64,000 nucleotides of DNA, taken from Bacteroidota bacterium (GTDB lineage Bacteria; Bacteroidota; Bacteroidia; Bacteroidales; JACABE01). Below, in pieces: positions 25,319 through 49,933 of the stretch; positions within the stretch are counted from its first letter, which is position 1; every line of letters begins with the position of its first letter. The stretch covers positions 62,001 through 126,000 of the forward strand of contig JAPLDQ010000005.1 in assembly GCA_026391675.1 (NCBI GenBank). Direction: 5' to 3'. The notes under the pieces were generated by a model, which did no database searches, was not told where the DNA came from, and saw only the letters and a program-made list of their open reading frames with translations. The position numbers and the translations under genes were made by a program.

Positions 25319-25347
25319 CAACCATTTTTTTAATTTCATACTCTTTA
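25319..25347 (+). promoter_or_regulatory. Putative ECF promoter, class 1, sigma gene of cluster A
   Basis: CAACC at 25319-25323, 16 bp, then ACTCTTTA at 25340-25347. The flank CATACAACC is identical at 29611-29618, upstream of the PKD protein gene in the same cluster. The same layout occurs at 47900 and 49905. It would make the sigma gene self-regulated. Confidence 0.75.
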
Positions 25348-25365
25348 TAAAAAGCACTTAATAAA

Positions 25366-25917
25366 TTGGACGTCTATTTGGAATCAACTTACGATTTGTC
25401 AATAGAAGAGCTTAATTTGCTGGAAGGTTGTCTTAAGCATGACCGACTGATGCAAAAAAGGCTCTATTATAAATATTGCGATGCAATGTTTACCTTGGCA
25501 TATCGTATTCTGAACGATAATGATGAAGCCAATGATGCTTTACAGGATGCATTTTTGCAAGTGTTTCAGAAAATGGATCAATTCAAAAGACAATCTACTT
25601 TAGGAAGTTGGATAAAGACCATCGTTATCAGAACAGCCATTAAGCATCTGAAAAATTTACAGTTATTTGATAGTTTTCAGGAACAGAAACATGATAGTAT
25701 AACACTTAATAACACTGAAATTGATGGAAAAATACTTGAAAAAGTTATTTTATCATTACCTGACGGATACCGTACTATTTTTATACTGGCTGAAGTGGAA
25801 GGTTACAAACACCGCGAAATAGCTGAAATGCTTAATATTTCAGAAGGTACTTCAAAATCACAGCTTTTTAATGCAAAAAAAATGCTGAAAGTTATACTTA
25901 AAAATGATTGGTTATAA
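25366..25917 (+). CDS. ECF sigma factor, cluster A
   Basis: Sigma-70 family factor of 183 residues with region 2 (ANDALQDAFLQVFQKMDQFK, then STLGSWIKTIVIRTAIKHL) and region 4 (LPDGYRTIFILAEVEGYKHREIAEMLNISEGTSKSQLFNAKKML). The start is probably TTG at 25366; no ATG precedes the conserved part. It is closely similar to the sigma factor at 47973. Its stop overlaps the start of the next gene by one base (TAATG), so the two should be co-translated. A class 1 ECF promoter lies 18 bp upstream of the start. Confidence 0.92.
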   Translation: MDVYLESTYDLSIEELNLLEGCLKHDRLMQKRLYYKYCDAMFTLAYRILNDNDEANDALQDAFLQVFQKMDQFKRQSTLGSWIKTIVIRTAIKHLKNLQLFDSFQEQKHDSITLNNTEIDGKILEKVILSLPDGYRTIFILAEVEGYKHREIAEMLNISEGTSKSQLFNAKKMLKVILKNDWL

Positions 25918-27464
25918 TGGAAAATAATTCAAATATAAATTGGTCTGATCTGCCGGTTCATAAACCTGATACGGATTTATGGAACAGGATAGAGACTGAA
26001 TTGGAGATCCAGCCAATTATCGGGAATATTGATGAGCTCCCGCTCCATAACCCAAAGACTACATTGTGGAATACCATCAATAATCGATTGAATTTTTATA
26101 AATATGCCAGATATGCTTTATATACAGGGATTGCACTTACTATTGTTGTTTTGGTTTATTTGTTTACTGATAAATCAACTACAAATAAACCAACTGTAAA
26201 CCCTGAAAATAAACTCACAGAAACAATTAAGATTAAAGAAAATACTGTAAATAATGCGCTTACTGTGAATTCTTCAAAATCAGAAAATCAATCACATATA
26301 GCTAAATCTATCAATAATGCTAAAGCTGAAAATGAAGTAATTACAGAAAAATTTGTTAAGCATGAAAACCCGCTTGCTAAAAATCATTTGATTGCTTTGC
26401 ATGATAATACTACTAAAAAAGCTGAAAATAAACCAGTTAAACCAGTTTTGTCAAAACATGAAACGGCAAAAACAAATCCTGCAGTTCAAATTGAAACCCA
26501 AACCAATATAAATGCTGTTGAGTCGAAAAATGTATCAGATGCCAATTTACCTTTAAAAGAAAAAAATATTGCTGAACCAACAAAGGAGAAAGTAAACACG
26601 AAAATTGATAATCAGTCAAACACGATTGAAACCAATCCTCTGCCACCACAAGCTGTAGCTAAAACTGAGGTAAAGCCATTACCGACGAATGATAAAACTG
26701 CCAAAGATGAAGAAGATGTATTGCGGTCAAAGCTGAAATCGGCAACTGTGGTAAGTGAAAAAGCATTATATTCTATTGGTATTGATTATACCTATAGCAA
26801 AATATATAATGCTGAAAAATTCTCCTATTCAGCTAATAATCAGTTGAGCCAGTTTGGGATTAGCTTAAAATACAATTACAGAAAATGGATCATTCAAACC
26901 GGATTAAATTTTAGCAGTTTCTCTGATAATTTCACATACAACTCCGATCAGCAACTGAATCAGTTTAAGACTTATCATTATGTTGATTCTGTTATTTATA
27001 ATCCACAGGGAAATATCATCCAATATATTACCCATCCTGTTACTATAAATGATTCAGTGCTTTATCAGCAATTACTTTCCATAAGCAGAAAATATACAAT
27101 GCTGAATATTCCATTAGTTATTGGTTATCAGCTTAATTACGGCAAGTTTTCAGTTGGTTTAAAAGCAGGAGTTTTATGTTCAGTTATTATTGCAGAAAAG
27201 GAATCCATGAAATTGCCCGATAATCCTGCTGTTTCAATTTTAAAAATTTATTCAACCAATAATTCAGTTAATAAAGTCAATTGGGGAACAATTTTAGCTG
27301 CAGAATTTGACTATAATTTTACAAAAAGACTGGGCTTTTCGACAGAGCCTGTTCTGCAATATTACTTTAAATCATTATATAAAGAAATGGATATCAACTC
27401 TGTTTCCTATAGTCAAAAACCTTATTTGCTTGGTGTTAAATTTGGTTTGTATTATAAATTTTAA
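25917..27464 (+). CDS. Anti-sigma-like protein with outer-membrane beta-barrel
   Basis: Protein of 515 residues using the ATG that overlaps the sigma stop; a TTG nine bases earlier is less likely. The cytosolic part (1-62) has two copies of a motif: LPVHKPDTDLWNRIETEL and LPLHNPKTTLWNTINNRL. One helix (about 66-84) crosses the inner membrane. A Lys/Asn/Thr-rich, probably disordered linker of about 200 residues follows, then a domain from about 290 rich in alternating beta strands ending in YYKF, typical of an outer-membrane barrel. It could physically link the outer membrane to the sigma factor. The anti-sigma role is inferred from position and layout. Confidence 0.75.
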   Translation: MENNSNINWSDLPVHKPDTDLWNRIETELEIQPIIGNIDELPLHNPKTTLWNTINNRLNFYKYARYALYTGIALTIVVLVYLFTDKSTTNKPTVNPENKLTETIKIKENTVNNALTVNSSKSENQSHIAKSINNAKAENEVITEKFVKHENPLAKNHLIALHDNTTKKAENKPVKPVLSKHETAKTNPAVQIETQTNINAVESKNVSDANLPLKEKNIAEPTKEKVNTKIDNQSNTIETNPLPPQAVAKTEVKPLPTNDKTAKDEEDVLRSKLKSATVVSEKALYSIGIDYTYSKIYNAEKFSYSANNQLSQFGISLKYNYRKWIIQTGLNFSSFSDNFTYNSDQQLNQFKTYHYVDSVIYNPQGNIIQYITHPVTINDSVLYQQLLSISRKYTMLNIPLVIGYQLNYGKFSVGLKAGVLCSVIIAEKESMKLPDNPAVSILKIYSTNNSVNKVNWGTILAAEFDYNFTKRLGFSTEPVLQYYFKSLYKEMDINSVSYSQKPYLLGVKFGLYYKF

Positions 27465-27473
27465 GCAAAATAA

Positions 27474-29516
27474 ATGCTGATTAAAAGACTGACATATTAT
27501 TTATTGTTTTTTCAACTGATGGCTTTCACCGCTTTTTCTCAGACTAATCTGCATTGGGATTGGGTGAGAACAGCTGGCGGGAATCTTTACCAATATGCTT
27601 CTTCAATAGCTGTCGATAACAATAAAAATATATTTATTGCCGCTACTTTTAACAGTAATACTATTTCAATCGGAACCAACAATGTGATACTTACCTCCAA
27701 TGATACTGCCGGGATTTCGAATTTTTTTGTTGCAAAATACAATCAGAGTGGACAGGTAATCTGGGCAAAAAAGGCTATTTCAACTGCTGCAATGTCTTCA
27801 AACAAAGTAATTACAGATAACAGTGGCAATATTTATGCCTGTGGCTATTTAAATTCAAATAGTGCAATTCAAACTGTTTCTTTTGACGGAATTAATACAT
27901 ATGCAATAAACGGAGGCAAATCTTTTGTTGTAAAGTACAATTCATCAGGGAATACTCAATGGGTTATATTTACAAAAAATTCAGTTTATGATACTATTTC
28001 TGGTTTAAAATGGGATGCATTAACCAATTCAGTTATTATTGCCGGATATTGCAGGACTGATACTGTGAAAGTTGGCAATATAATGATTCCAAATTCAGGA
28101 ATAAATACGTATAATTCATATGTTGCCAAAATAAATAACTTACAGGGCAATGTTGATTGGGTAAAAGCTTCCAAAGGCAGCCCGAGTTTCTGCAGAATCA
28201 ATGATATGTGTATTGATACCATTGGGAATATATATACAGCTGCATCCTTTAGCAGTAGAACTTTTTTTATTTCAACTTCAACTTCTGATTCTGTCAGCAA
28301 CAGTAATGTCTCTACCGGAATAATATCTGTTGAAGGATATATTGCAAAATACAGCTTAAGTGGCTTTTTATATTGGTGGCGTAAAGGGATTTGCCTTGCC
28401 GATGATGAATTTACAACTATTACATTTAAGAATAATAGCAGACTGGTTGCAGGAGGCTATAATACTGCACAAATTACCATTGGTGGAACAGTTTTAAATA
28501 CAGCCAATTATATAACTGAATATAATGATCAGGGCGTTTTTATTTCCGGAGTGAGTTTTCCTTCAACAATAAAAACACTTAATGCCAATAAAATAGGCAA
28601 TGGCTTTGTTATTGGCGGTATTTTTAATTCAGATACACTAAGTATTGGAAGTTCTATACTTCTAAAAAAAGGGGCAGGTAATCCCAATCCAAATATTTTT
28701 ATTGCAAAAGCTGATAATTTGGGAACATATACCCATGCTGTATCAGCAGGAGGTGTTGGCTCTGCTTATTTAAATTCTATGGCTATTGGCGATTCCAATG
28801 AAATATATTGCAGTGGTTCCTTTAATCAATCATCCGTTTATTTTGATACCATTCAATATTTTATTCATGGTCAAACAGATTTGTATCTGGCAAAATTAAC
28901 AACTGCAACTGTTTTGCCTATTCCCTTTAAATATAACCTGGGAGGAACTGTTTTTGCAGGAAACTTGCCGGCAGATCTTGCAAAAGTTTATTTATTAGAT
29001 TCCTCACTCACTATTGTTGATAGTTGTAATGTTGATACCCTCGGATTTTATAGCTTTTATCAGAAACCAATCGGGAATTATAAAGTCAATGCTACTTTAT
29101 TACCTGCATCAGTGTATTTTATGCAGAACTATATTACAACATTTTATCCTGATCAATTATCACCAGCTACCGCGTCTAATATTTATTTAAACTTAAATGC
29201 CTGGGCTAAAGATATTTATTTACAAAAATCAAATCAAATTTCAGAAATAAAAAACTACGATAAAAACTTAATAATTTATCCTGATCCTGCTGTAAATGAG
29301 TTATTTATTTCAATAAATACTGAAAATAAAGCGAATGCTGAATTGAAAATTTTCAATAGTAATGGACAACTTGTTTATAATCTTCATCATAAATTAAATG
29401 CAGGGAAAGATGTAATTAAATTAAATATTCGTGATTTTAAAAGCGGATTATATTTTGTAGTAATCAAAACCAATGAAAATACTGTATTAAAAAGCCGCTT
29501 TATTAAAGCTGAATAA
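27474..29516 (+). CDS. Secreted repeat protein with T9SS tail
   Basis: Protein of 680 residues with a signal peptide (about 1-22). The body has repeats of the SBBP/beta-propeller kind, with segments such as VDNNKNIFIAATF, DNSGNIYACGYL and DTIGNIYTAASF spaced 60-70 residues apart. A small carboxypeptidase-regulatory-like domain (YNLGGTVFAGNLPADLAKVYL) precedes the type A sorting tail (NLIIYPDPAVNELFISINTENK to LKSRFIKAE). It begins 9 bp after the barrel gene, so it belongs to the sigma operon. Its ligand is not known. Confidence 0.82.
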   Translation: MLIKRLTYYLLFFQLMAFTAFSQTNLHWDWVRTAGGNLYQYASSIAVDNNKNIFIAATFNSNTISIGTNNVILTSNDTAGISNFFVAKYNQSGQVIWAKKAISTAAMSSNKVITDNSGNIYACGYLNSNSAIQTVSFDGINTYAINGGKSFVVKYNSSGNTQWVIFTKNSVYDTISGLKWDALTNSVIIAGYCRTDTVKVGNIMIPNSGINTYNSYVAKINNLQGNVDWVKASKGSPSFCRINDMCIDTIGNIYTAASFSSRTFFISTSTSDSVSNSNVSTGIISVEGYIAKYSLSGFLYWWRKGICLADDEFTTITFKNNSRLVAGGYNTAQITIGGTVLNTANYITEYNDQGVFISGVSFPSTIKTLNANKIGNGFVIGGIFNSDTLSIGSSILLKKGAGNPNPNIFIAKADNLGTYTHAVSAGGVGSAYLNSMAIGDSNEIYCSGSFNQSSVYFDTIQYFIHGQTDLYLAKLTTATVLPIPFKYNLGGTVFAGNLPADLAKVYLLDSSLTIVDSCNVDTLGFYSFYQKPIGNYKVNATLLPASVYFMQNYITTFYPDQLSPATASNIYLNLNAWAKDIYLQKSNQISEIKNYDKNLIIYPDPAVNELFISINTENKANAELKIFNSNGQLVYNLHHKLNAGKDVIKLNIRDFKSGLYFVVIKTNENTVLKSRFIKAE

Positions 29517-29613
29517 ATTACATAAAGCTAAGATATTTAAATAAATATAAGAATATTATTTAGATTTTAACAATAATTATTATTAACTTTGTAAATATTT
29601 TTTTAAACACATA

Positions 29614-29642
29614 CAACCTTTTTTCGAGAAAATAACTCTATA
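29614..29642 (+). promoter_or_regulatory. Putative ECF promoter, class 1, PKD protein gene of cluster A
   Basis: CAACC at 29614-29618, 16 bp, then ACTCTATA at 29635-29642. The -35 flank CATACAACC equals that of the cluster A sigma gene. This points to the gene at 29675 as its target. Confidence 0.75.
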
Positions 29643-29674
29643 CTATATATAAATTTATTTAATAATCAAAAGTC

Positions 29675-32602
29675 ATGAAAAAAATAGCTTTACTTTTTAC
29701 ATTTGTCCTTTTGAGTTTTGTATGTCTCCAGGCTCAGGTTTTATATACCATCAGCGGATATGTTACAAATCTCAGTAATGTTGCAATCCCAAATCATACA
29801 GTTTATGTAATGTCTGACAGCACTTTAACACCAATGTTCTATGCTTCAGCCAATACAAACTCCAATGGATTTTATACAGCTTCAGTTTCAAGTGTTTCAC
29901 CAGTTGGTACACCTGTAGTTTTTCATGTATATACCTATGATTGTAATAATGTTGGTCATTACGCCACTGTTATTGTCAGCAGCACCAGTCCGAGTGGTGT
30001 GGCAAATTTCTCTATTTGTGATTCATCCACTGCTACAGGATGCCACGCAAATTTTAACTATACAGTGTCCGGTACCAATAGTTATACGTACAATTTTTTA
30101 AGTACATCAACAGGTAACCCGATTTCATATTTATGGAATTTTGGGGATGGAACCACATCAAATGCGCAAAATCCTACACATGCCTATAATTCTAATGGAA
30201 TTAAAATCATTTGTCTGACTATAACTACGGCTAATAATTGTACATCTACCCATTGTGATTCAGTTTACATTACAGGCGGTACTACAAATACCTGCCATGC
30301 TAATTTTAGTTTTTATACAGATTCTTTAAATTACCATAAAAGATATTTTACCAATACTTCAACCACAACATATACAGGTTTACAAATTCAGTATTTATGG
30401 AATTTTGGTGACGGAACTACCTCAACCAATGCTAATCCTGACCATATCTTCCCAACTACTACTGCTGCAACTACATATAATGTTTGTTTAACAATGAAAC
30501 TTGTAAATTCTGCATCTGTTATTGAATGCCAGAATACTACCTGTTATTCAGTTACTATTGCAGGAACTACTGCAAGTAGCTGTCAGGCTTATTTCTATTT
30601 TTATAAAGATTCTTTATTATTAACAAATACCTATCATTTTCAAAACTATTCAACTACAACTTATACCGGTATGCAAGTTTCCTATGAATGGAATTTTGGT
30701 GACGGAACTACTTCTACACTTCAGAACCCTGTTCATACTTATCCTGTAAATACTGCCGCTATAACTTACAATGTTTGTTTAATCATGAAAGTTAAAGATT
30801 CTTCCAACGTTATTATATGTACAAACACTTACTGTAAAGCTCTTGTAATTGCAGCTCCTGTATCAGGATGTCAGAATTCATTTACTTTTACTCACCAGAA
30901 TTTGAATTATGCATTTGCCGGAACTATTAATACAGCAGGTACTACAACATATTATTGGAATTTCGGAGACGGTTCTACAGCCACAGGTCAAAATGTAACC
31001 CATACATTTGCATTACCTTCACCGGGAACCACAGGATATCATGTTTGTTTAACCACTGTTACCATATACAATAATATACCATGCTCTGATACCACCTGCG
31101 CTTTTGTTACTGTTTCAAATACTACAAATACTTGTCAGGCATATTTCTCTTATTATAAAGATTCTTTATTAACCACTAATACTTATCATTTTGTAAACTA
31201 TTCCACAACAACATATACCGGATTACAGATTACCTATGAATGGAATTTTGGTGACGGAACTACTTCCACACTGCAAAATCCTGTACATACCTATCCAGCT
31301 ACATCAGCATCGGTTACTTATAATGTTTGTTTAATCATGAAAGTTTTAAATGCATCAGCAGTTATTGAATGCCAGAGTACTTATTGCAAAAACCTTGTTA
31401 TCGGAACACCTGTAACTTCTTGCCAGAATTCCTATACTTATACACATCAGAATTTAGTATATAGTTTTGCAGGTCAGATTAACTCAAGTTATCCTACAAC
31501 TTACTACTGGAATTTTGGTGACGGCTCAACAGCCAGTGGACAATTTGTATCTCATACATATGTTCAGCCACCTGTCGGAACGCTGGGATACCATGTGTGT
31601 TTAACTACTGTTACTACTGCTAATGGAGTTAGCTGTACCGATACAACCTGCAATTTTATAACCATATCCAATACTTCCGGCGGTTCAATTATTCAGGGTT
31701 ATGTTACAGCTGGTAACAGTTCTGTTTATAACGGTTATGTATTGTTATACCAGGCCAATAATGCCACCATGTCATGGAATCTTATAGATACACTGGCACT
31801 GGATTCATTAGGATACTATATCTATAATTATATGGCTGTTCCTCCTGTAACTCCTGCATTCCTTGTTAAAGCAGTATTGAATTCATCTTCTTCACTTTAC
31901 AACATGTTTGCACCAACATTCTATAATCATGCGATCAACTGGTTCGCAGCAACGCCAGTTTATCCTTCAGCAACTACAGTATTTTATAATATCAGTATGA
32001 TAGCATTACCAACTCCTGTTATCGGCAGCGGTAATGTTACCGGAAGTGTTACCAACAATGGTATTAAAGCTACAAATGGCGTTCCATTAGCCGGTGCTGA
32101 GTTGATTTTAACTGACGAATTCGATAGTCCACTGGCTGTTAATTATTCAGCAGCAAACGGTCAGTTTAGTTTTAGCAGTTTACCTTATGGAAACTATAAA
32201 TTACACCTTGAAGTTGCCGGTGTAAATTACGAAGCCTATGCATTTACTTTAAGTGCCGATATGCCTTCAATAACCAATATTAATGTTACCATCACCAGCA
32301 CAGGTGCCATTATTACAGCTATTGAAAATGACGTTCAAAAGAATGTTTCAACCATCAGCCAGATTTATCCAAATCCAGCTTCAGCTGATGCTTATCTTGA
32401 CATAAAAACTACTAAAGCTGATCGTTTTGTAATTTCAATCTACGAAAGTACAGGTATCAGAATATCAGCCAATGAATATAAAATAAATGGCAGCCAGCGC
32501 ATTAACCTGAACAGCGCACATCTGGCTACAGGTATTTATTTTATTAAGATAGAAACTTCCGGTGGCGTCAATTCTATCAGGAAACTGGTGATTTCGAAAT
32601 AA
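29675..32602 (+). CDS. Secreted protein with six PKD domains and T9SS tail
   Basis: Protein of 975 residues with a signal peptide. An opening carboxypeptidase-like beta domain (about 22-112) is followed by six PKD domains, each marked by a WNFGDG[TS]T core. Domains 3+4 and 5+6 are near copies, so a two-domain unit has been duplicated. Two more beta domains (about 655-880) precede the type A tail (ISQIYPNPASADAYLDIKTT to GVNSIRKLVISK). It is likely a surface adhesin or glycan-binding protein. It has its own ECF-like promoter and a strong terminator. Confidence 0.88.
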   Translation: MKKIALLFTFVLLSFVCLQAQVLYTISGYVTNLSNVAIPNHTVYVMSDSTLTPMFYASANTNSNGFYTASVSSVSPVGTPVVFHVYTYDCNNVGHYATVIVSSTSPSGVANFSICDSSTATGCHANFNYTVSGTNSYTYNFLSTSTGNPISYLWNFGDGTTSNAQNPTHAYNSNGIKIICLTITTANNCTSTHCDSVYITGGTTNTCHANFSFYTDSLNYHKRYFTNTSTTTYTGLQIQYLWNFGDGTTSTNANPDHIFPTTTAATTYNVCLTMKLVNSASVIECQNTTCYSVTIAGTTASSCQAYFYFYKDSLLLTNTYHFQNYSTTTYTGMQVSYEWNFGDGTTSTLQNPVHTYPVNTAAITYNVCLIMKVKDSSNVIICTNTYCKALVIAAPVSGCQNSFTFTHQNLNYAFAGTINTAGTTTYYWNFGDGSTATGQNVTHTFALPSPGTTGYHVCLTTVTIYNNIPCSDTTCAFVTVSNTTNTCQAYFSYYKDSLLTTNTYHFVNYSTTTYTGLQITYEWNFGDGTTSTLQNPVHTYPATSASVTYNVCLIMKVLNASAVIECQSTYCKNLVIGTPVTSCQNSYTYTHQNLVYSFAGQINSSYPTTYYWNFGDGSTASGQFVSHTYVQPPVGTLGYHVCLTTVTTANGVSCTDTTCNFITISNTSGGSIIQGYVTAGNSSVYNGYVLLYQANNATMSWNLIDTLALDSLGYYIYNYMAVPPVTPAFLVKAVLNSSSSLYNMFAPTFYNHAINWFAATPVYPSATTVFYNISMIALPTPVIGSGNVTGSVTNNGIKATNGVPLAGAELILTDEFDSPLAVNYSAANGQFSFSSLPYGNYKLHLEVAGVNYEAYAFTLSADMPSITNINVTITSTGAIITAIENDVQKNVSTISQIYPNPASADAYLDIKTTKADRFVISIYESTGIRISANEYKINGSQRINLNSAHLATGIYFIKIETSGGVNSIRKLVISK

Positions 32603-32625
32603 ATAATTTCTGCAATCATTCACTA

Positions 32626-32660
32626 AGAGAGGCTTCCGAAAGGGAGCCTCTCTTTTTTTT
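32626..32660 (+). terminator. Rho-independent terminator after the PKD protein gene
   Basis: Perfect 9-bp stem AGAGAGGCT/AGCCTCTCT, 10-nt loop, then a run of seven T. Confidence 0.9.
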
Positions 32661-32713
32661 AAGTATTAATAATGCCTTAAAAGTATTGATTTATCAAATC
32701 TTAATTCTAAAAT

Positions 32714-32921
32714 CGTTAATCGTTGTTCTAAAATCAAAAAAATGCGATTAACGATTAACGAATGAAGAAGTTTGAAGAATGACCAGATGGAATGATTTGT
32801 GTAATGAAATTATTTTCTAAATTTTTATAAACATTTTCCTGCAGATATTCGCTGATGAATACGCAAATTAGAGCAGAAATCTGCTTTATAGTGATAGTTT
32901 CACTTTAAGTGAAGCTATCAC
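32714..32921. promoter_or_regulatory. Two palindromes in a 430-bp gene-free stretch
   Basis: The gap 32603-33034 has no gene. CGTTAATCGTT (32714-32724) pairs with AACGATTAACG (32750-32760). GTGATAGTTTCACTT (32891-32905) pairs, with one mismatch and a one-base centre, with AAGTGAAGCTATCAC (32907-32921). The second looks like an operator for a dimeric regulator, or a near-perfect hairpin. Confidence 0.55.
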
Positions 32922-33034
32922 TTTGGATTAAAAGAAAGTTTCTCTTTTTTTGTTAATAACAACTCAAATATATATCTTTTGTAGATGCTGCTTGAGTAGA
33001 TTATTTTATATATTTGTTGTATAAATATTGTTTT

Positions 33035-33415
33035 ATGAATGTACTATATTACTACTACTTTTTATTTTATACTAAGATACTTCCCGATGATGAACCTCAT
33101 GCAACAACTATTTTTACTCTAAGTCTGTCAGAATCATTCCTTATCAATGTAATTATTGATATTTTAATATCTTATTTTTATTGTACATTTATTAGTAAAT
33201 GGACAATGATTGTAATTACATTATTTATCATGGTAATTAATTATTTTTTATTTTACAGAACCGGGAAGGCAAAAAATATTATTAAGTTAAAACCCAAAAT
33301 ATTTAATAGTAATTCTCTTTCTATCGTATTTGTTATATTATTTTTTATAATTACTTCCTCATTTTTGTTTTGGGGGCCAATTTTAGTAAAGCAGATATTA
33401 GCAAATTGTAAATAA
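33035..33415 (+). CDS. Small hydrophobic membrane protein, unknown
   Basis: Predicted 126 residues from the ATG at 33035; a TTG seven codons earlier is possible. It has about three hydrophobic helices (near residues 28-50, 54-72 and 94-115) and no motif I recognise. It ends 12 bp before the S41 peptidase gene and may share its transcript. The AT-rich composition means it could be non-coding, but the even spacing of the helices argues for a real gene. Confidence 0.5.
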   Translation: MNVLYYYYFLFYTKILPDDEPHATTIFTLSLSESFLINVIIDILISYFYCTFISKWTMIVITLFIMVINYFLFYRTGKAKNIIKLKPKIFNSNSLSIVFVILFFIITSSFLFWGPILVKQILANCK

Positions 33416-33427
33416 AATAAACAATAT

Positions 33428-39760: not shown

Positions 39761-39977
39761 GAATATATTTATAAAATGGGCTTTAGCCCAAATAGTTTTG
39801 CCGGTCAATAGTGAAAAAAATAAACAAAAAATAAGCTAAATTATTAGTTTATTTCAGGGATATTTATTATACTCTGTTAATATCCAGCCACTCAATTTTC
39901 CACCATTTTATTAAGCTCACTTTAATTTTTAACCCTATATTTTTATAAATTTGTGCTTTATTTTAAAATGAAAAGTT

Positions 39978-40547: not shown

Positions 40548-40571
40548 TGTGTTTTATTTATGCTAAATATG

Positions 40572-40760: not shown

Positions 40761-40791
40761 AATAATCCAATAACTTAATAACATAATAACT
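40760..40791. repeat. Four 8-bp units TAATAACT
   Basis: Units TAATAATC, CAATAACT, TAATAACA and TAATAACT. It has the same unit, count and phase as the array at 18077-18108, with no four-helix gene nearby. Confidence 0.85.
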
Positions 40792-40841
40792 TATTACTCT
40801 AAAATCTGGCAGATTAATTTGCAATCATAAAGAATAAATGT

Positions 40842-41384: not shown

Positions 41385-41480
41385 TTGAATGTTCAATTTC
41401 ATTTTAAATTTAAACTTAAACTTCAACAATTTCTGTTAAAAATGGTTGATAAATTAAATGATTTTTAAATTTAATTTATC

Positions 41481-42059: not shown

Positions 42060-42198
42060 TCTGATTTGCATAAAAATGGCACACAGATCAGACAGATTGA
42101 TAATGATTAAAACAGTTAAATGATTGAGAACTCAAGCTTTAAGTACTTCTTTTTACTAAGAAGCCGTACCGACCTCAAATACTTACGCTACAAAACAA

Positions 42199-42382
42199 GC
42201 ATTTTAAATAGCGGTGGCACTGGCAAGCAATACAGAAGTAACGAAGTTTCACAGTTGTAATAAAGCTTTAAAGTTTATTTCGTTACGGCTTGTATTGCGC
42301 TGGGATTTAAAATGCATAGTTTTGAAGTAAAGGATTTGAAGTTTTGAATTTTTATTTACTTTTTGTTCAAGCAAAAAGTAAA
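42199..42382. repeat. Imperfect inverted-repeat element plus hairpin
   Basis: In the gene-free stretch 42060-42463, arms GCATTTTAAAT, GCAATAC and GTAACGAA on the left (42199-42245) are mirrored by TTCGTTAC, GTATTGC and ATTTAAAATGC on the right (42279-42315). A separate perfect hairpin TTTACTTTTTG/CAAAAAGTAAA lies at 42355-42382. It has no coding capacity and looks like a decayed small mobile element. Confidence 0.6.
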
Positions 42383-42450
42383 ATATAAATAAGATAATTA
42401 GGAATTTAACATACAATCTTCTTTTTATGAAAAAAGAGCATCAAAATCAT

Positions 42451-42458
42451 TAATTTTG
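42451..42458 (+). promoter_or_regulatory. Candidate -7 element of the dus gene
   Basis: TAATTTTG lies only 5 bp before the ATG at 42464, so the transcript would be almost leaderless. No clear -33 TTTG is seen at the right distance, so the call is weak. Confidence 0.35.
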
Positions 42459-42463
42459 CAATC

Positions 42464-43414
42464 ATGATTATACTAGCTCCCTTACATGGCTATACTGATG
42501 TTGTTTTCCGCAATGTTTATGCAAGGCATTATCAGGGTATTGATATAGCAGTAAGTCCCTTTGTATCCTTAACACACGGCGATAAGATAAATCCCCGCAA
42601 ACTAAGGGATTTACTGCCTGAGCACAATGTATCCATGCCGGTAATCCCTCAGATATTAGGTAAAGAACCTGAATTGTTTATTCAAATGGCTGATTATTTA
42701 TACGATTGGGGTTACGAAACAATAAACTGGAACCTGGGCTGCCCCATAAAGGGTATAGCAAAAAACGACAGAGGTTCTGGTTTGCTTACAAAACCTGATT
42801 TGCTGAAATCAATACTGGATAAAATAGTTCCGGGGATTAAACAGAAATTATCTCTTAAAATCCGGCTGGGTTATTTTGATGCCGATGAAATATTTGCCTT
42901 AATTCCCATATTTAATAATTATCCTTTAGCTGATATTTGCATTCATCCACGCATAGGTATGCAGATGTATGAAGGTGAAATTATGCACGATGTTTTACTC
43001 CGGATTTTGCCTGAATTTAAAGCTGAAATCATTTATAATGGCGATATTTTCAACTTAAAAGATTATAAGGAAATGCAAAAGAAATATCCTTCTGTAAACC
43101 AATGGATGTTGGGCAGGGGAGTCTTTTACAATCCATTATTACCCATTCAGATTAAAAGAAATGATGAAAAATGTACTGAAACGGAAGAATTGGAATTTAG
43201 CTTGTTTCTACTTGATTTATATCAGGAACTGCAGATAAATAAATCAGAACATCAGGCTTTAAATAAGATAAAGGATCATTGGCATTTGTTCAGTATGGGT
43301 TTCGAAAACAGGGATGAGGTCTTAAACCGGATTATTCATGCAGATAATATTGCCGGTTTAATTGAAACCAGCAATGATATCGTTCTTACCGAAAAAAGGA
43401 AATTATCACCTTAA
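42464..43414 (+). CDS. tRNA-dihydrouridine synthase
   Basis: FMN enzyme of 316 residues that reduces uridine in the tRNA D-arm or related sites. The opening is LAPLHGYTDVVFRN and the catalytic Cys is in NWNLGCPIKGIAKNDRGSGLL. LKIRLGYFD and ICIHPRIGMQMYEG are FMN or tRNA contacts, and IIYNGDIFN closes the barrel. It is closest in look to the DusC-like branch, but the position it modifies cannot be fixed. The stop codon overlaps a half copy of the RAYT palindrome (43413-43425). Confidence 0.9.
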   Translation: MIILAPLHGYTDVVFRNVYARHYQGIDIAVSPFVSLTHGDKINPRKLRDLLPEHNVSMPVIPQILGKEPELFIQMADYLYDWGYETINWNLGCPIKGIAKNDRGSGLLTKPDLLKSILDKIVPGIKQKLSLKIRLGYFDADEIFALIPIFNNYPLADICIHPRIGMQMYEGEIMHDVLLRILPEFKAEIIYNGDIFNLKDYKEMQKKYPSVNQWMLGRGVFYNPLLPIQIKRNDEKCTETEELEFSLFLLDLYQELQINKSEHQALNKIKDHWHLFSMGFENRDEVLNRIIHADNIAGLIETSNDIVLTEKRKLSP

Positions 43415-43469
43415 ACCTGTCAGGTATCTGAAAACAGCAGTATTATGTTTTAATAATGCTTATGTAGAT

Positions 43470-43742
43470 AACAGGACGCACCTAAGGTGCTGTTCATATG
43501 ATGCGGCTTTATATTATTAACAGTATGCTACTACGTAGCAAAAGAAAAAGATAAAATCTTGTTTCCTTAATTCCAAAATAAATAATTGTTTAGTTCTTTT
43601 CTCAAATTGATAATTTGAACATTAAAAAAGATTAAATTAAAATAGAATGTTCTTAGATATCTGAGTATATATAAGTCCGTAGGACTTTACTGTTAATAAC
43701 AAAAAAAGTAAATAAAACTAAGCTGCATAGCAGCGTCCTGTT
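43470..43742. repeat. 273-bp element with nested inverted repeats and four hairpins
   Basis: Outer ends AACAGGACGC and GCGTCCTGTT, inner pair TTATTAACAGTA (43514-43525) and TACTGTTAATAA (43688-43699). Four small hairpins sit symmetrically: GCACCTAAGGTGC (43478), TGCTACTACGTAGCA (43526), AAGTCCGTAGGACTT (43673) and GCTGCATAGCAGC (43722). There is no gene between 43415 and 43848. Confidence 0.8.
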
Positions 43743-43848
43743 TTAACCCATTCAAGGCATAGAAGGGATATGAAAACGCCGTTTTAAATTTAATTAACAA
43801 GCAATTTTCAAAATTTATTGCTAATTTTGAAAGCTAAATACCTGCATT

Positions 43849-44484
43849 ATGGGCACAAAATTGAATATCCATTCCAAAAATCTCCTGAATTACTTTTTAC
43901 AGGGTTTGTTGTATATAACTCCTTTGGGGGCAACCATATTTATCATTTATTATACCTTTAATCTGATTGATACCAAAGCCAATGATTTATTTGATCACAT
44001 ACTCAGCATTAGAATTCCCGGTTTGGGCATATTGTTAACCGTAACAGTTATTACTATTGTTGGTTATTTTGGGAAAAGCATTATTGCCAAACCTTTGGTA
44101 TCGCTGATAAATTCTGTAATGGAAAAGGTTCCCTTTATAAAGGTGATTTATTCATCTACCAAGGATTTTATGTCGGCTTTTGTGGGACAAAAGAAAAAGT
44201 TTACCGAAACCGTTATGGTAAAAATGAACGACGATGCCGAAATTTATAAACTGGGATTTGTTACCCAAAAAGACTTAAGTAATATCGGAATTAAAGAAGG
44301 AATGATAGCGGTTTATCTTCCCCATTCCTATAATTTCTCAGGCAATTTATTCATAGTTCCTGCTGCAAATGTTACACCCATAAATGCGCCTTCTGCTGAG
44401 ATGATGAAGTTTATTGTTAGCGGTGGTATTACTGAAATAAATAAAAATGCTGAACATGAAGAAATACAGGATATTAATAACTAA
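43849..44484 (+). CDS. DUF502 membrane protein
   Basis: Protein of 211 residues with two transmembrane helices (about 18-40 and 60-82) and an outside or cytosolic tail. Family segments: FLQGLLYITPLGATIFIIYYTF, IPGLGILLTVTVITIVGYFGKSI, VPFIKVIYSSTKDFMSAF and MIAVYLPHSYNFSGNLFIVP. DUF502 function is not established; plant relatives (LCV-like) take part in membrane regulation. It overlaps surE by 29 bp, so it opens the surE-lpxB cluster. A TAATTTTG box at 43822-43829 may be its -7 element. Confidence 0.85.
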   Translation: MGTKLNIHSKNLLNYFLQGLLYITPLGATIFIIYYTFNLIDTKANDLFDHILSIRIPGLGILLTVTVITIVGYFGKSIIAKPLVSLINSVMEKVPFIKVIYSSTKDFMSAFVGQKKKFTETVMVKMNDDAEIYKLGFVTQKDLSNIGIKEGMIAVYLPHSYNFSGNLFIVPAANVTPINAPSAEMMKFIVSGGITEINKNAEHEEIQDINN

Positions 44485-45226
44485 CGATGACAGTGTAGAA
44501 GCACCGGGTATCAGGAAACTCATTGCATTAATGCGCCAGTTGGGCGATGTAATTGTAATGGCACCTGATAAACCACAGTCGGGGATGGGACATGCAATTA
44601 CGGTGTCATCTCCCTTACGTATGAGGCTGCTACATAAGGAACATGGATACGAAGAATACAGTTGCAGCGGGACGCCGGTTGACTGTATTAAAATTGCCGA
44701 GAAAACGGTTATTAAAGGTAAACCTGATTTAATTGTTTCAGGCATTAATCATGGTTCCAATGCATCAATTAATGTTGTTTATTCCGGTACTATTGCTGCA
44801 GCTATTGAAGGTTGTATTGAAGGAATTAATTCCATCGGATTTTCACTGGATGATTATTCATGGAGTGCAGATTTCAGCCATGTTGATGAATATATACTGA
44901 AGATATGCAGAGAAGTGCTGGAAAAAGGCTTACCTAAAGATACCTGCTTAAATGTAAATATTCCTGCTCAAAACGGAAGTCCGGTTAAAGGTATGATGTT
45001 ATGCCGTCAGGCCCGTGCCAGCTGGGTTGAAAGTTTCGATGCCCGTAAAGATCCCCACAACAAGGATTATTACTGGTTAACCGGAGTATTCCACAGCGAT
45101 GATTTAGCAGAAGATACCGATCAGTGGGCCTTGAAGAATAATTTTGTTGCCATTGTTCCTTTACATTTTGATTTAACTGCCCATCACCATCTCAAAACAC
45201 TGCATACATATGACTGGAAGATTTAA
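44456..45226 (+). CDS. surE: 5'/3'-nucleotidase SurE
   Basis: Metal-dependent nucleotidase of 256 residues from the ATG at 44456 (an ATG at 44447 is also in frame). ILITNDDSVEAPGIRKL has the metal-binding Asp pair, and DLIVSGINHGSNASINVVYSGTIAAA is the second signature. The enzyme removes phosphate from nucleoside monophosphates and short polyphosphate. It overlaps the genes on both sides, pointing to a single transcript with lpxB. Confidence 0.95.
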   Translation: MKKYRILITNDDSVEAPGIRKLIALMRQLGDVIVMAPDKPQSGMGHAITVSSPLRMRLLHKEHGYEEYSCSGTPVDCIKIAEKTVIKGKPDLIVSGINHGSNASINVVYSGTIAAAIEGCIEGINSIGFSLDDYSWSADFSHVDEYILKICREVLEKGLPKDTCLNVNIPAQNGSPVKGMMLCRQARASWVESFDARKDPHNKDYYWLTGVFHSDDLAEDTDQWALKNNFVAIVPLHFDLTAHHHLKTLHTYDWKI

Positions 45227-45488
45227 GAAAGATAGTAACCTATTTGGATCAATACTTGGTATAACTACAATAGTTATTTCATTTTTACTTGTATTTATTA
45301 CAGTTCAATTCATTGAATTTGATAATACCATAATGAGAACAAAACTTTTTTTGTTGTGTATTATACCTAATATCTTTTTAATCCGTTATTATCTCAAGGT
45401 TTTGTATTTCGAAAAAACCGGAAAATCCATATTATTCATAAGTTTCCTTTATTTGATGGCCTTTTTTATCTATTATTTTAAAAGATGA
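45210..45488 (+). CDS. Small membrane protein of unknown function
   Basis: 92 residues with three hydrophobic helices (about 11-33, 42-58 and 68-88) and a basic start. It overlaps surE by 17 bp and lpxB by 4 bp (ATGA), so it is likely translated with both. I see no family motif. The tight overlaps make it more likely real than a chance frame, and suggest a membrane role linked to lipid A synthesis. Confidence 0.7.
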   Translation: MTGRFKKDSNLFGSILGITTIVISFLLVFITVQFIEFDNTIMRTKLFLLCIIPNIFLIRYYLKVLYFEKTGKSILFISFLYLMAFFIYYFKR

Positions 45489-46603
45489 AGTATTACGTTA
45501 TTGCCGGGGAGGCTTCCGGTGATTTACATGCCTCAAACTTAATAAGAGCATTAAAGAATGCTGACAATGCTGCTGAATTCAGGGCATGGGGTGGCGATTT
45601 AATGCAGGAGCAGGGCGCAACGCTGGTTAAACATTACCGCAATCTGGCTTTTATGGGTTTTATTGAAGTAGTTGCCAATCTAAGAACGATACTCAACAAC
45701 ATTAAGTTTTGCAAAAAAGATATAGATAATTATAAGCCTGATGCTATAATTTTGGTCGATTATCCGGGTTTTAACCTTCGTATTGCTGAATGGGCTCATG
45801 AAAAGGGATATAAGGTCTTTTATTATATTGCGCCTCAGGTTTGGGCCTGGCATCAGTCGAGAGTTAATAAAATGAAGAGAGTAATTGACCATCTGTTTGT
45901 TATTCTTCCTTTTGAAAAAGATTTTTTCAAATTACATGGACTGGAAGCCGATTTTGTTGGACATCCCTTACTGGATGCCATCGAAAACCATTCGCTTGAA
46001 AAAACAAATGCAGCGTTAGAGTTAAAAAGTGATAAACCACTTATTGCCTTATTGCCTGGTAGCCGTAAACAGGAAGTTAATACTGTTCTTCCGCTCTTGC
46101 TTGAAATAACGCGTGACTATCCTCAATATCAGTTTATCATTGCCGGCGTTAATACACTTCCGCATCAATTCTATAAGGATATACTGAAAGATTCATCTAT
46201 CGAGATAGTGTACGGACAAACCTATAATTTACTGAAACAGGCTTATGCAGCTATTGTAACTTCAGGTACAGCCACGCTGGAAACAGCATTGCTGAATGTA
46301 CCTCAGGTTGTTTGTTATCAGGCCAGTAAAATATCGTATTTTATTGCTCGTAAGTTCGTTACCGTAAAATATATTTCACTGGTAAATCTTATCATGGATA
46401 AAAAGGTAATAACCGAACTCATACAGCATGATTTCAATATTAAAGATTTGAAAATTGAATTTGAAAAGATTACTAATGATACTAACTACAGGGAACATCT
46501 CTTGGCTGAATATCAGCAATTAAAAGTGAAGCTGGGATGCAGGGGAGCCTCTGAAAATACTGCACAACTCATTGTAAAATACTTAACGGATACAAAAAAC
46601 TAG
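45485..46603 (+). CDS. lpxB: Lipid-A-disaccharide synthase
   Basis: GT19 enzyme of 372 residues that joins UDP-2,3-diacyl-GlcN and lipid X in lipid A synthesis on the inner face of the inner membrane. The start MKYYVIAGEASGDLHASNLI is the family opening. Then come AFMGFIEVVANL, DYPGFNLRIAEWA, YYIAPQVWAWHQSRV, FVGHPLLD and ALLPGSRKQEV, and TSGTATLETAL in the nucleotide-binding half. All are intact. No lpxA or lpxD lies in the window. Confidence 0.96.
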   Translation: MKYYVIAGEASGDLHASNLIRALKNADNAAEFRAWGGDLMQEQGATLVKHYRNLAFMGFIEVVANLRTILNNIKFCKKDIDNYKPDAIILVDYPGFNLRIAEWAHEKGYKVFYYIAPQVWAWHQSRVNKMKRVIDHLFVILPFEKDFFKLHGLEADFVGHPLLDAIENHSLEKTNAALELKSDKPLIALLPGSRKQEVNTVLPLLLEITRDYPQYQFIIAGVNTLPHQFYKDILKDSSIEIVYGQTYNLLKQAYAAIVTSGTATLETALLNVPQVVCYQASKISYFIARKFVTVKYISLVNLIMDKKVITELIQHDFNIKDLKIEFEKITNDTNYREHLLAEYQQLKVKLGCRGASENTAQLIVKYLTDTKN

Positions 46604-46612
46604 TTTATATTA

Positions 46613-47761
46613 ATGAAAAAAAGAGTCATCATATTTTTAACATTACTTACAGTTTCTGCTGTAATATTTGCTTCGGATTTTAATGTGAGGATATTCTCAC
46701 AGGACAATATCAAATCGGTTACCATTACTTCATTGGTTGGAAAATATACCATCAGTGGAAACGAAGCGAATGTTACTACTATTGAAAAAGGGGAGGCTGT
46801 AACATTAAGCATTGAAAAGACCAAAATCAGGATTAAAAGGGATAATAAAGATGTCGGATTATTCAATAATATTCAGATTGAAGGTGATGGACTCAAAAAT
46901 ATTTTTAAAATCAAACCTTTAAATCAGGATCTGAACGAACGCATTTATGATGATGATCTGGAATTATCCATTGAAAAAGGCATGCTTAAAATTGTCAATA
47001 ATGTAAATATTGAACATTATGTTGCAGGGGTGGTGCAATCTGAAATTTTAGGCAGCTGCGATTCACTTGAGTTCTTTAAAATACAGGCCATTATATCGAG
47101 GACTTATGCTATCAATAATATGATGAAACATTATAAGGAAGGCTATAATTTGTGCGATGATGTGCATTGTCAGGTATATAAAAGCCGTTGTAACAATTAT
47201 CAGATTCTTATGGCAACAACCTTAACCACAGGCGATGTTATAGTTGATAAAACCAAACGTATGATTTCAGCAGCTTTTTGTTCAAATTCAGGTGGTGAAA
47301 CCATAAACTCTGAAGAATTATGGTCCATTTCAACTACCTATTTAAAAGCTGTAGTGGATACTTTTTCCAATGGCATGCGCAACAGCAGCTGGGAGAAGAA
47401 AATGCCCGTCCGCGAATGGCTGAACTACCTTAAAACGACGTATAAGTATCCTGTGGAAGATACCGCTATGCGGCATAAGGCATTAAATTTTGAGCAAACA
47501 ACGCGTAAAATGTATTTCCCTGACAGCATTCCTTTAAAAAGTATCAGAAAAGACATGGATTTTAAATCTACTTTCTTTTCTGTTAAAAAAGAAGGCGATA
47601 ATGTAATCATAAAAGGCAAAGGCTATGGACATGGTGTTGGCCTGAGCCAGGAAGGTGCCATCAAAATGGTAAGATATAAATACAAAGCCAGTCAGATCCT
47701 GAAATTTTATTATAAAGACGTAGATATCATTAACTACGAAGAGATAAAGAAGATTGATTGA
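46613..47761 (+). CDS. SpoIID/LytB-domain protein
   Basis: Secreted or periplasmic protein of 382 residues with a signal peptide (about 1-19). The SpoIID part has IEHYVAGVVQSEILGSCDSLEFFKIQAIISRTYAI, then DDVHCQVYKSRC and ISAAFCSNSGGETIN; GKGYGHGVGLSQEGAIKMV is the terminal signature. SpoIID is a lytic transglycosylase acting on denuded glycan; members outside spore formers act on peptidoglycan in division. It starts 9 bp after lpxB and probably ends its operon. Confidence 0.9.
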   Translation: MKKRVIIFLTLLTVSAVIFASDFNVRIFSQDNIKSVTITSLVGKYTISGNEANVTTIEKGEAVTLSIEKTKIRIKRDNKDVGLFNNIQIEGDGLKNIFKIKPLNQDLNERIYDDDLELSIEKGMLKIVNNVNIEHYVAGVVQSEILGSCDSLEFFKIQAIISRTYAINNMMKHYKEGYNLCDDVHCQVYKSRCNNYQILMATTLTTGDVIVDKTKRMISAAFCSNSGGETINSEELWSISTTYLKAVVDTFSNGMRNSSWEKKMPVREWLNYLKTTYKYPVEDTAMRHKALNFEQTTRKMYFPDSIPLKSIRKDMDFKSTFFSVKKEGDNVIIKGKGYGHGVGLSQEGAIKMVRYKYKASQILKFYYKDVDIINYEEIKKID

Positions 47762-47899
47762 CGTTTATATTTTAAACTTCAGTCTTCCGAACTTCAAATT
47801 CCGGATTCCTCTGTTTTTTATTAACTGCTTTAAAACTGTTAATTATTTTCCTTTAATCATTAATATAAATACTTATTTTTGAAAAAATATATTTTGATG

Positions 47900-47928
47900 C
47901 AACATTTTGCCTCATTTATTACTCTTTA
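47900..47928 (+). promoter_or_regulatory. Putative ECF promoter, class 1, sigma gene of cluster B
   Basis: CAACA at 47900-47904, 16 bp, then ACTCTTTA at 47921-47928. The flank TGCAACATTTT is shared with the LamG gene promoter at 49905, and differs from cluster A. Confidence 0.75.
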
Positions 47929-47972
47929 ATAAAATACCAAAAATTGATTTATAAACTAAGCTGAAATCTAAC

Positions 47973-48494
47973 GTGCAAGTTGATGAGGAAGTGCTAATTG
48001 ACGGTTGTCTTAAGGATGACCGTCGAATACAGAAACTATTATACGATAAGTATTGTAAAGCCATGTACACAACAGCTTATAGAATACTAAAAGATTATGA
48101 TGATGCAAATGATGCATTACAGGAGTCGTTTATTAAGGTATTTAAAAACATTAGCCAATTTAAAGGAGAATCTACGTTAGGTGCATGGATAAAAATGATA
48201 GTTGTCCGAACCACTCTGAAATATTTAAAAGAAAAAAGAACTTTTATTACATTAGACGATTATACTGAAGATGATGTTAATATTATTTCTGATTCTATTG
48301 ATGGTATGAAATTACATCATGCTATTCTTTCATTGCCGGAGGGTTATCGTACAATATTCTTACTTACCGAAGTAGAAGGCTATAAACACAGAGAAGTTGC
48401 TGAAATGTTAAATATATCAATAGAAACTTCAAAATCGCAACTTTGTCGTGCAAAGAAATTACTTAAAGAAATGTTGATTAGCGAAATAAGATAA
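47973..48494 (+). CDS. ECF sigma factor, cluster B
   Basis: Factor of 173 residues starting at GTG. Region 2 reads ANDALQESFIKVFKNISQFK and STLGAWIKMIVVRTTLKYLKE; region 4 reads LPEGYRTIFLLTEVEGYKHREVAEMLNISIETSKSQLCRAKKLLKEML. It is a close paralogue of the cluster A factor at 25366. Its stop overlaps the next start (TAATG). A class 1 promoter lies 44 bp upstream of the start, suggesting self-activation. Confidence 0.93.
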   Translation: MQVDEEVLIDGCLKDDRRIQKLLYDKYCKAMYTTAYRILKDYDDANDALQESFIKVFKNISQFKGESTLGAWIKMIVVRTTLKYLKEKRTFITLDDYTEDDVNIISDSIDGMKLHHAILSLPEGYRTIFLLTEVEGYKHREVAEMLNISIETSKSQLCRAKKLLKEMLISEIR

Positions 48495-49846
48495 TGATAA
48501 GTCCTTCAGATAATATATGGTCCAAACTTCCTGAGTTTGATCCCAGTCCGGATTTATGGAACAGGATTGATCTTGATCTTGATTTTGAATCAGTATCTGA
48601 AAATATAAATCACTTACCTGAATTTGCTCCCAAAACAAATCTTTGGGAATCTATCAGCAGAAAACTTTTCTTTCATAAATATTACGGATATATATATATT
48701 GCGCTTATTCTTTTAATTATTTTGCTTATATCCTTTTTAAATTATAATGATAAAGCAAAAAATGTTAATAATTTGACTTCAAACATTTTAAATCAAAAAA
48801 TGCTAAATTATAAGAATCATCATAATACTACAAATCCTGAAAAACTTATATCACAATATCACAATATTAATAATCTGGAAAAGGGTGAAGACCGAATTAG
48901 AAATTCAGAACCAAATTATTATAATCCTTTAAAAGGCTTAATTGCATGGTATCCATTTAATTCAAATGCCAATGATTTAAGTGGTAACGGAAACAATGGC
49001 TTTGTTCATAATGCTGTTCTGACTACAGATAGATTTGGAAATCCTAATAGTGCATATTATTTTAATGGCTACGACAGTTATATTGAAGTGGCTAATTCAT
49101 CATCACTAAATCCAACAAATGCTTTAAGCCTTTGTGCCTGGTATAAGCCTGAAGCTTTTTCAAATGATGGCAGTTCAGGAATTCTTGACAAAGGGTTTAC
49201 ATCTTTTGAACCACCTTATTATCAGTATCGCTTTGCCACTCCCGGAGACTATAGTACAACAACTTATGATATGTTTTCCTTTAGTGTAACAAACAATGAT
49301 AAATCAAAAGGATTTAATACGCCAAATTATTTTTATACTATAGGTAAATGGTATTTTTTAGTAGGTATTTATGATGGAAGTACTTTGAAATTTTATGTAA
49401 ACAATAAATTGATTCAATCTATGCCATTAACAGCTAAACTTAATACTTATAATTCGCCGCTTTATATTGGTAGAAATTCTGTTGATTCTACTGGTCTTTT
49501 AAAAGGGACAGTTGATGATATAAGAATTTATAACAGAGCAATTACTGCATCAGAAGCTGAGAATTTATACAATGAAACTGCTGAAAATGGGATTAAAAGT
49601 GAATTTACTCAGGATATTATAAATTTGGTTGTTAATCAGGATTTTATTAATAAAAAATTAACTGTTGAAACCAATTCTAATGCTAAACAAAATTTAGAAA
49701 TTATAAATCTTAAAGGACAGCCCTTCTATTCAGCAATAATTAATAAGAAAACAGTTGTTGATATATCAGGATTTCCGAAAGGTGTTTATAAATTAAAAGT
49801 CTTTACTGATAGAGAAATGCATATTGAGATGTTTGTAAAACAGTAA
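48494..49846 (+). CDS. Anti-sigma-like protein with LamG sensor and T9SS-like tail
   Basis: Protein of 450 residues with no signal peptide. The cytosolic part has LPEFDPSPDLWNRIDLDL and LPEFAPKTNLWESISRKL, the same double motif as the cluster A partner. One helix (about 64-83) and a short linker lead to a LamG/concanavalin-like domain (about 150-365). The tail from about 375 (KKLTVETNSNAKQNLEIINL to KGVYKLKVFTDREMHIEMFVKQ) looks like a divergent type A sorting domain. The LamG domain is almost the same as that of the next gene. A sensor for the same ligand is inferred. Confidence 0.8.
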   Translation: MISPSDNIWSKLPEFDPSPDLWNRIDLDLDFESVSENINHLPEFAPKTNLWESISRKLFFHKYYGYIYIALILLIILLISFLNYNDKAKNVNNLTSNILNQKMLNYKNHHNTTNPEKLISQYHNINNLEKGEDRIRNSEPNYYNPLKGLIAWYPFNSNANDLSGNGNNGFVHNAVLTTDRFGNPNSAYYFNGYDSYIEVANSSSLNPTNALSLCAWYKPEAFSNDGSSGILDKGFTSFEPPYYQYRFATPGDYSTTTYDMFSFSVTNNDKSKGFNTPNYFYTIGKWYFLVGIYDGSTLKFYVNNKLIQSMPLTAKLNTYNSPLYIGRNSVDSTGLLKGTVDDIRIYNRAITASEAENLYNETAENGIKSEFTQDIINLVVNQDFINKKLTVETNSNAKQNLEIINLKGQPFYSAIINKKTVVDISGFPKGVYKLKVFTDREMHIEMFVKQ

Positions 49847-49904
49847 TAATACCTCTAAATTTATTCAGGAAATATCATAATCTGATAATTTTTTTTCATA
49901 CGTG

Positions 49905-49933
49905 CAACATTTTTAATTAAAAAAAACTCTTTA
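49905..49933 (+). promoter_or_regulatory. Putative ECF promoter, class 1, LamG protein gene of cluster B
   Basis: CAACA at 49905-49909, 16 bp, then ACTCTTTA at 49926-49933. The flank TGCAACATTTT is identical to that of the cluster B sigma gene. Confidence 0.75.

Follow-up and report, generated by a model that had tools for sequence, protein, structure and literature searches.

The Dma proteins of the Bacteroides thetaiotaomicron Dma/Das systems are dual membrane-spanning anti-sigma factors encoded beside sigma genes of ECF21, an extracytoplasmic function (ECF) group. As described in the available text of PMC13088901, they consist of an N-terminal domain, a transmembrane (TM) helix, a disordered tether and a barrel. 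Here we analyse a 64,000-nucleotide (nt) stretch of a Bacteroidota genome (contig JAPLDQ010000005.1, positions 62,001 to 126,000; hereafter the window). It holds two paralogous ECF sigma genes, sigma A and sigma B, each followed by a gene for a putative anti-sigma factor. A promoter element stands before both sigma genes and before two genes for secreted proteins. The described Dma/Das pairs are the closest known systems. The partner genes of sigma A, sigma B and three further paralogues (C, D and E) all lie beside an ECF sigma gene, and all five partners have an N-terminal domain and a helix, with a tether that is probably disordered in the models of A and C. The match of these sigma factors to TIGR02985 is below cut-off. 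The difference lies at the C terminus. A barrel is predicted at low confidence in anti-sigma A. In anti-sigma B, C and D the C terminus is instead a sorting domain of the type IX secretion system (T9SS), which in B is accompanied by a LamG domain. The main text of PMC13088901, as far as it was available, nowhere uses the term T9SS.

Three other systems, each compared through the accessible part of its report, share single features with this locus. The biomass-sensing SigI/RsgI pairs of Clostridium thermocellum (PMC4711584) are paralogous and autoregulated, carry an outward binding module on the anti-sigma factor and have secreted targets. They differ in being Gram-positive, of the sigma-I family and built on the RsgI N-terminal domain, with no outer membrane or T9SS. 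RsgI proteins are the nearest working analogue, alike in how they would work and not in kinship; the RsgI N-terminal domain is absent from the Pfam matches of anti-sigma A to E. In the PorXY-SigP/PorA system of Porphyromonas gingivalis (PMC7712824), a protein with a T9SS C-terminal domain (CTD) influences an ECF sigma factor that regulates secretion genes. PorA, however, is a separate surface protein that acts through a two-component system, whereas here the CTD is predicted on the anti-sigma factor itself and the predicted targets are cargo, not machinery. The SM6 promoters of Flavobacterium psychrophilum (PMC9723704) are mapped, ECF-type promoters with a CGT box that precede T9SS genes and a sigma/anti-sigma pair. 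They differ in their CGT −10 and in serving machinery genes, and the CTC variant described below was not found in the portion of that report at hand.

The original prediction placed four sites of the layout CAAC[CA]-N16-ACTCT[TA]TA at 25319, 29614, 47900 and 49905. All four are exact, with the coordinates and spacing as claimed, and they are the only exact matches in the window; 100 dinucleotide shuffles gave none. Across the genome (4,043,372 bases, both strands) there are seven exact matches, against one for the reversed pattern. Six of the seven lie 18 to 89 nt upstream of start codons, two belonging to sigma genes and four to T9SS cargo genes. The matches beyond the window are C13:181, C27:139507 and C16:215972. 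The C13 site lies 39 nt before a gene whose product, an InlB-repeat/PKD protein of 600 residues, has a tail of T9SS type A (58.9 bits with TIGR04183; cut-off 23), and the C27 site lies 89 nt before the gene of a 306-residue protein with a tail of the same type (53.0 bits). All four non-sigma target genes encode a tail above the TIGR04183 cut-off. The C16 match is probably chance, because it lies antisense within an open reading frame (ORF), nucleotidyltransferase-like by eye. A stricter version with a T-run, CAACNWTTT-N12-ACTCTWTA, has six exact matches in the genome, namely the four window sites, C13:181 and C27:139507. A looser motif with two mismatches was dropped, since it was at chance level in the window (11 against 7.1 expected) and below its control in the genome (41 against 71). 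Because the excess is gone at two mismatches, the evidence here is limited to forms that match exactly or nearly so. The prediction of ECF-type promoters, probable autoregulation and specific secreted targets is supported, and the C13 and C27 genes add two further T9SS cargo genes.

The six sites fall into two sets by their flanks. The A-type flank, ATACAACC, is found at sigma A, the PKD gene and C13, and the B-type flank, TGCAACATTTT, at sigma B, the LamG gene and C27. The split by cluster was first noted for the window sites and now extends to three sites of each type, with both new sites fitting cleanly. The C27 site looks like a copied promoter cassette. It is not independent of the sigma B site, because promoter and leader are identical at 65 of 74 positions; in the remaining pairs of sites, spacers and flanks have no comparable similarity outside the elements. 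The claim that the −35 had changed between the clusters needs narrowing: both sets have an identical core, and the difference is confined to the bases that flank CAAC. Two residues do differ in the region-4 helix (F/N in sigma A, C/R in sigma B at two aligned positions). They align with what we take to be F175 and R176 of E. coli sigma E, presumably contact residues.

The two sigma proteins are 58% identical over 168 residues, in keeping with the predicted paralogy. Both match Sigma70_r2 and Sigma70_r4_2 above cut-off with no match to region 1 or 3, which places them among the ECF (group IV) factors. The genome holds five paralogous sigma genes, A to E, and 14 matches to sigma A, A itself included.

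To place the element in a wider family, we collected 123 distinct sigma proteins (80 from named loci, 38 from other loci and five from this genome) after removal of duplicates and of fragments shorter than 140 residues. CAAC-N17-19-NTC[TA] occurs upstream of 85 of the 123 genes (shuffles, mean 6.4; reversed control, 13). The form with N18 accounts for 78 (shuffles, mean 1.27; reversed control, 4), and no other spacing from 10 to 26 gives a count above 10. By column counts the commonest form is approximately TGCAACCTTTT-N..-GTCT. Because the family sites excel at this one spacing, the ACTCTTTA element looks, at the level of sequence, like a local and derived version of the promoter by which members of a phylum-wide ECF sigma family would regulate their own genes.

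The derived base has a counterpart in the protein. In the sigma H of Mycobacterium tuberculosis, N88 hydrogen-bonds a −10 thymine, and other ECF factors of that species have His or Arg there, according to the accessible text of Li et al. (PMC6411747). We equated the corresponding region-2 column by the spacing W-x3-I-x2-N. This column is Asn in 113 of the 123 proteins, Arg in six, His in two, and Tyr and Thr in one each. The six Arg members are A, B, three orthologues of A and the sigma factor of a more distant genome, G016 (55% identical to A). Scored Asn members number 77, and before TC they have G in 50 cases, A in 27 and C in none. Of the five Arg members that were scored, four have C there and one has A; the sixth, from G016, has no site of the scored form. 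A rule that Asn means G is ruled out by sigma E, which has Asn with A before TC and N17. The rule that survives is that, among scored members, C before TC is seen with Arg alone. The His and Thr variants pair with A before TC, which is also found in 27 of the 77 Asn members, and are uninformative. The shared −10 of the original prediction is indeed near-identical in both sets; it appears, however, to be a derived form, with CTC for the family's GTC or ATC, that goes with an Asn-to-Arg change in region 2. The A/B group would offer a naturally occurring example of joint change in a sigma factor and its −10 element.

Conservation was followed in related genomes. A search with sigma B gave a match at E ≤ 1e-20 in 54 of 59 genomes, own genome counted, and the best match in three congeners is the sigma A orthologue (76–79% identical to A). 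In all three, the sigma A gene has a site of the same layout 44–46 nt upstream of the aligned start: CAAC-N18-CTCTTTA in G002 and G003, and CAAC-N18-ATCTTTA in G001. The PKD-gene orthologues of G002 and G003, the two that are readable, also have CAAC-N18-CTCTTTA; the G001 contig ends before the 5' side. The CTCTTTA −10 is thus present in four of five congener sites. In the more distant G016, sites read by eye are CAAC-N18-CACTTTA at the sigma gene and CAAC-N18-CCCTTTA at a downstream T9SS-like gene.

Each of sigma A to E is followed by its partner gene, in which the most hydrophobic helix starts at residue 47–69. Anti-sigma A and B are 47% identical over 55 N-terminal residues. These downstream genes were missing from the original prediction, as were the two genome targets and the three further paralogous pairs (C in the window, D and E elsewhere). 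The C-terminal module of anti-sigma A has no Pfam match; its model has 10 C-terminal strands (mean predicted local distance difference test score, pLDDT, 50.4; 26–32 in the other four models), which gives a low-confidence prediction of a beta barrel, as in Dma. Anti-sigma E is barrel-like by eye only, with no Pfam or NCBIfam match. Anti-sigma B has a LamG domain (84.5 bits) and a tail that passes TIGR04183 (28.3 bits; cut-off 23) and misses the Pfam tail model (21.9; cut-off 27). Type B tails are found in anti-sigma C (TIGR04131, 64.6 bits; CHU_C, 66.1) and anti-sigma D (40.7 and 72.5), with cut-offs of 35 and 27. By the NCBIfam cut-offs, B, C and D therefore all carry a T9SS sorting domain. 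The anti-sigma C model (mean pLDDT 62.7) is of very low confidence over residues 68–182 and of high confidence over an immunoglobulin (Ig)-like domain and the tail. A Foldseek search with this model returned mostly Ig-like matches, with PorU at rank 4, and was too unspecific to count.

We surveyed partners at 80 named Bacteroidota loci, the best 80 of 543 confirmed places; 78 of the 80 have a readable partner ORF. In 77 of the 78 the start of this ORF is no more than 50 nt away from the sigma stop codon (starts were allowed no earlier than 45 nt before the stop). Local hidden Markov models (HMMs) assign 26 partners to a CTD class, 27 to a barrel class and 22 to a short class, with three unassigned. 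These HMMs were seeded from the same set, which makes the E-values of the seeds circular; the Pfam and NCBIfam counts are independent and comprise 25 CHU_C, 19 OMP_b-brl_2 and 22 TIGR04131. The N-terminal 48 residues match across classes by hhalign at 98%, and three column-shuffled controls, made for one pair, stay below 1%. A quick sigma tree (83 rows, without G016) needs 15 parsimony changes for the three labels, and its starred branches alone force two to three per class. Sigma A, its orthologues and sigma B form one starred set (100), yet their partner modules differ. The presence of T9SS was rejected as a discriminator of the classes. SprA (PF14349), also found in the present genome, occurs in the genomes of 26/26 CTD, 25/27 barrel, 22/22 short and 3/3 unassigned partners; it separates nothing because the sample is T9SS-rich (76/78), and the two negatives, both barrel-class, fit. 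A full-text search of the open-licence literature for anti-sigma and T9SS gave no title or abstract start that describes T9SS-tailed anti-sigma factors, an absence that is not proof. We offer tentatively, and with less than even confidence, the idea that such factors form a phylum-wide class, a tethered decoy cargo whose loss frees the sigma factor for matching cargo.

We consider it quite likely that the four window sites are promoters of the sister sigma factors A and B, in self-regulating circuits with membrane partners and T9SS targets. This reading draws on the computed sites, their genome distribution and conservation, the domain make-up of the proteins and the co-occurrence of the −10 change with the Asn-to-Arg change. 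From these we infer that the two sigma factors use these promoters, that each is specific to its set, that the partners act as anti-sigma factors and where the start sites lie. Each sigma factor would drive its own gene and the adjoining anti-sigma gene. Sigma A would also drive the PKD and C13 proteins, and sigma B the LamG and C27 proteins. The partner would hold its sigma factor at the inner membrane through an N-terminal sigma-binding segment and one helix, with a long linker leading to an outer C-terminal module. This module, probably a barrel in A and LamG with a T9SS tail in B, may sit in the outer membrane or face the surface. Ligand binding or T9SS engagement of the module would free the sigma factor. 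For B two engagements are conceivable: LamG could bind a ligand, or the tail could dock at the T9SS. For C and D tail docking is favoured because no binding domain is evident beyond the Ig-like one in C. In a decoy-cargo version, the export machinery or a surface ligand would pull the C-terminal module, the anti-sigma factor would be lost and the sigma factor released.

Pair B gives this version a particular form. The LamG domain of anti-sigma B is 71–72% identical to that of the protein encoded at 49973. The next match to the latter in the genome is 34% identical, so sensor and presumed target share a relatively recent copy of the domain. If the decoy reading is true, the sensor would display a domain almost identical to the one whose production it governs. 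To our knowledge, it is largely open how the production of surface proteins in Bacteroidota is matched to their export. In this locus the promoter can be read together with the sigma factor, the inhibitor and the cargo, and the predicted inhibitor bears the cargo's kind of export tag and, in one case, its binding domain. The sensing mechanism is thereby open to test by a few deletions.

Several observations weigh against two self-regulating circuits. No scored site was found for 38 of the 123 family sigma genes. The full ACTCTTTA is present in one of five congener sites only (sigma A of G003), and in G001 the base before TC at the sigma A gene is A, not C. The association of Arg with C (Fisher p 0.0005) is confined to one kin group and is in effect one event, so the p-value overstates the link. 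The search with sigma B brought up no orthologue of it in any of the three congeners, so that the footprints cover A sites only. Finally, A and B sites differ at just two bases around CAAC, which makes cross-recognition plausible. Taken further, both sigma factors might read all six sites as one merged regulon in which the flank differences are drift. The −35 core and spacing are identical and the −10 near-identical in the two sets, both sigma factors have the same region-2 Arg, and the PKD-gene site of G003, TGCAACC, is intermediate between the types. The clean three-and-three flank split, which includes two sites found since the original prediction, and the two differing region-4 residues speak against a merged regulon, and we hold it to be possible but on the unlikely side.

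The partners themselves could be misjudged. Those with T9SS tails might be ordinary secreted proteins that lie beside sigma genes, with the real inhibitors elsewhere; sigma binding is only predicted, and the tails of B, C and D exceed the NCBIfam cut-offs as normal cargo would. However, the most hydrophobic 19-mer of B, C and D starts at residue 48–64 in a hydrophobicity scan, a position unlike that of a signal peptide, which speaks against ordinary cargo. The segment before the helix is homologous to that of barrel and short partners, and partner ORFs across the survey sit close behind the sigma gene. We find this explanation distinctly unlikely. It is very unlikely that another ECF sigma factor or the primary sigma factor uses the sites and that A and B are merely targets. 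The genome does offer other candidates among its matches to sigma A, and related GTC-type sites stand at other T9SS-like genes, but among scored genes only those of A, B and their close kin show the CTC form, and these alone bear the region-2 Arg. Descent could also have left copied promoter pieces that are not maintained elements, as the near-identity of the sigma B and C27 promoters through the leader might suggest. The other site pairs lack such similarity, and the congeners keep the layout while the surrounding sequence differs; this explanation, already weakened, is the least credible and close to dismissible. Two circuits, each with its own targets, remain our preferred reading, and the features on which it is built are given in Table 1.

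Table 1. Positions of the two proposed circuits and of the third sigma/anti-sigma pair in the window.
Feature	Position	Strand	Basis
A-type ECF promoter element of sigma A (ATACAACC ... ACTCTTTA)	25319..25347	+	exact match; layout in 3/3 congeners, −10 variable
Sigma A, ECF sigma factor	25366..25917	+	Pfam Sigma70_r2, Sigma70_r4_2
Putative anti-sigma A: N-terminal domain, TM helix at about residue 69, disordered tether, predicted barrel (Dma-like)	25908..27464	+	hydrophobicity scan, model
Beta-propeller (SBBP) protein, T9SS type A tail	27474..29516	+	9 nt past anti-sigma A
A-type promoter element of PKD target	29614..29642	+	exact match; CTCTTTA in G002, G003 orthologues
PKD-repeat secreted protein, T9SS type A tail, predicted sigma A target	29675..32602	+	TIGR04183 39.3 bits, cut-off 23
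B-type promoter element of sigma B (TGCAACATTTT ... ACTCTTTA)	47900..47928	+	exact match; near copy at C27
Sigma B, ECF sigma factor	47973..48494	+	Pfam domains; identity to sigma A
Putative anti-sigma B: N-terminal domain, TM helix at about residue 64, linker, LamG, T9SS type A tail	48494..49846	+	
B-type promoter element of LamG target	49905..49933	+	exact match
LamG secreted protein, T9SS type A tail, predicted sigma B target	49973..51220	+	
Candidate sigma C promoter, CACC-N18-GTCC, weaker −35	61561..61586	+	read from sequence
Sigma C, third paralogue, 40% identical to sigma A	61592..62137	+	
Putative anti-sigma C: N-terminal domain, TM, disordered 68–182, Ig-like domain, T9SS type B domain	62145..63185	+	

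The SBBP gene is probably in the same operon as anti-sigma A. Upstream of the sigma C orthologues there is text similar to the candidate sigma C promoter, judged by eye only. Cluster C (window 60312–63999 and L049) has the order M16 peptidase (Pfam), sigma C, T9SS-B-tailed anti-sigma factor, M16-like peptidase and T9SS-B cargo, and the cargo gene has the family promoter. The order sigma factor, anti-sigma factor, peptidase-like ORF (by eye) and cargo recurs in L102, L106 and L108. A further ECF sigma gene lies at 58166–58651 of the window on the minus strand and is distant from A to E (23% identical to A).

Outside the window, sigma D and its T9SS-B-tailed anti-sigma factor lie at 4012–5547 of L047. 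By eye, three relatives (L103, L107 and L109) also show the sigma D site, ACAACC-N..-ACGTCTA. A second promoter set, with N17 and an ATC or GTC −10, stands before sigma E and several T9SS-like genes (L048 7002, minus strand; L049 6510, plus strand; L055; L066) and may mark a sigma E regulon. At G000:C8:120517 and C8:134915 (L056 and L057), a 28-nt promoter core, CAACCTTTTTTAGTTTTTTGCGTCTATA, with N17 is common to two genes that closely resemble each other and lie 14.4 kb apart.

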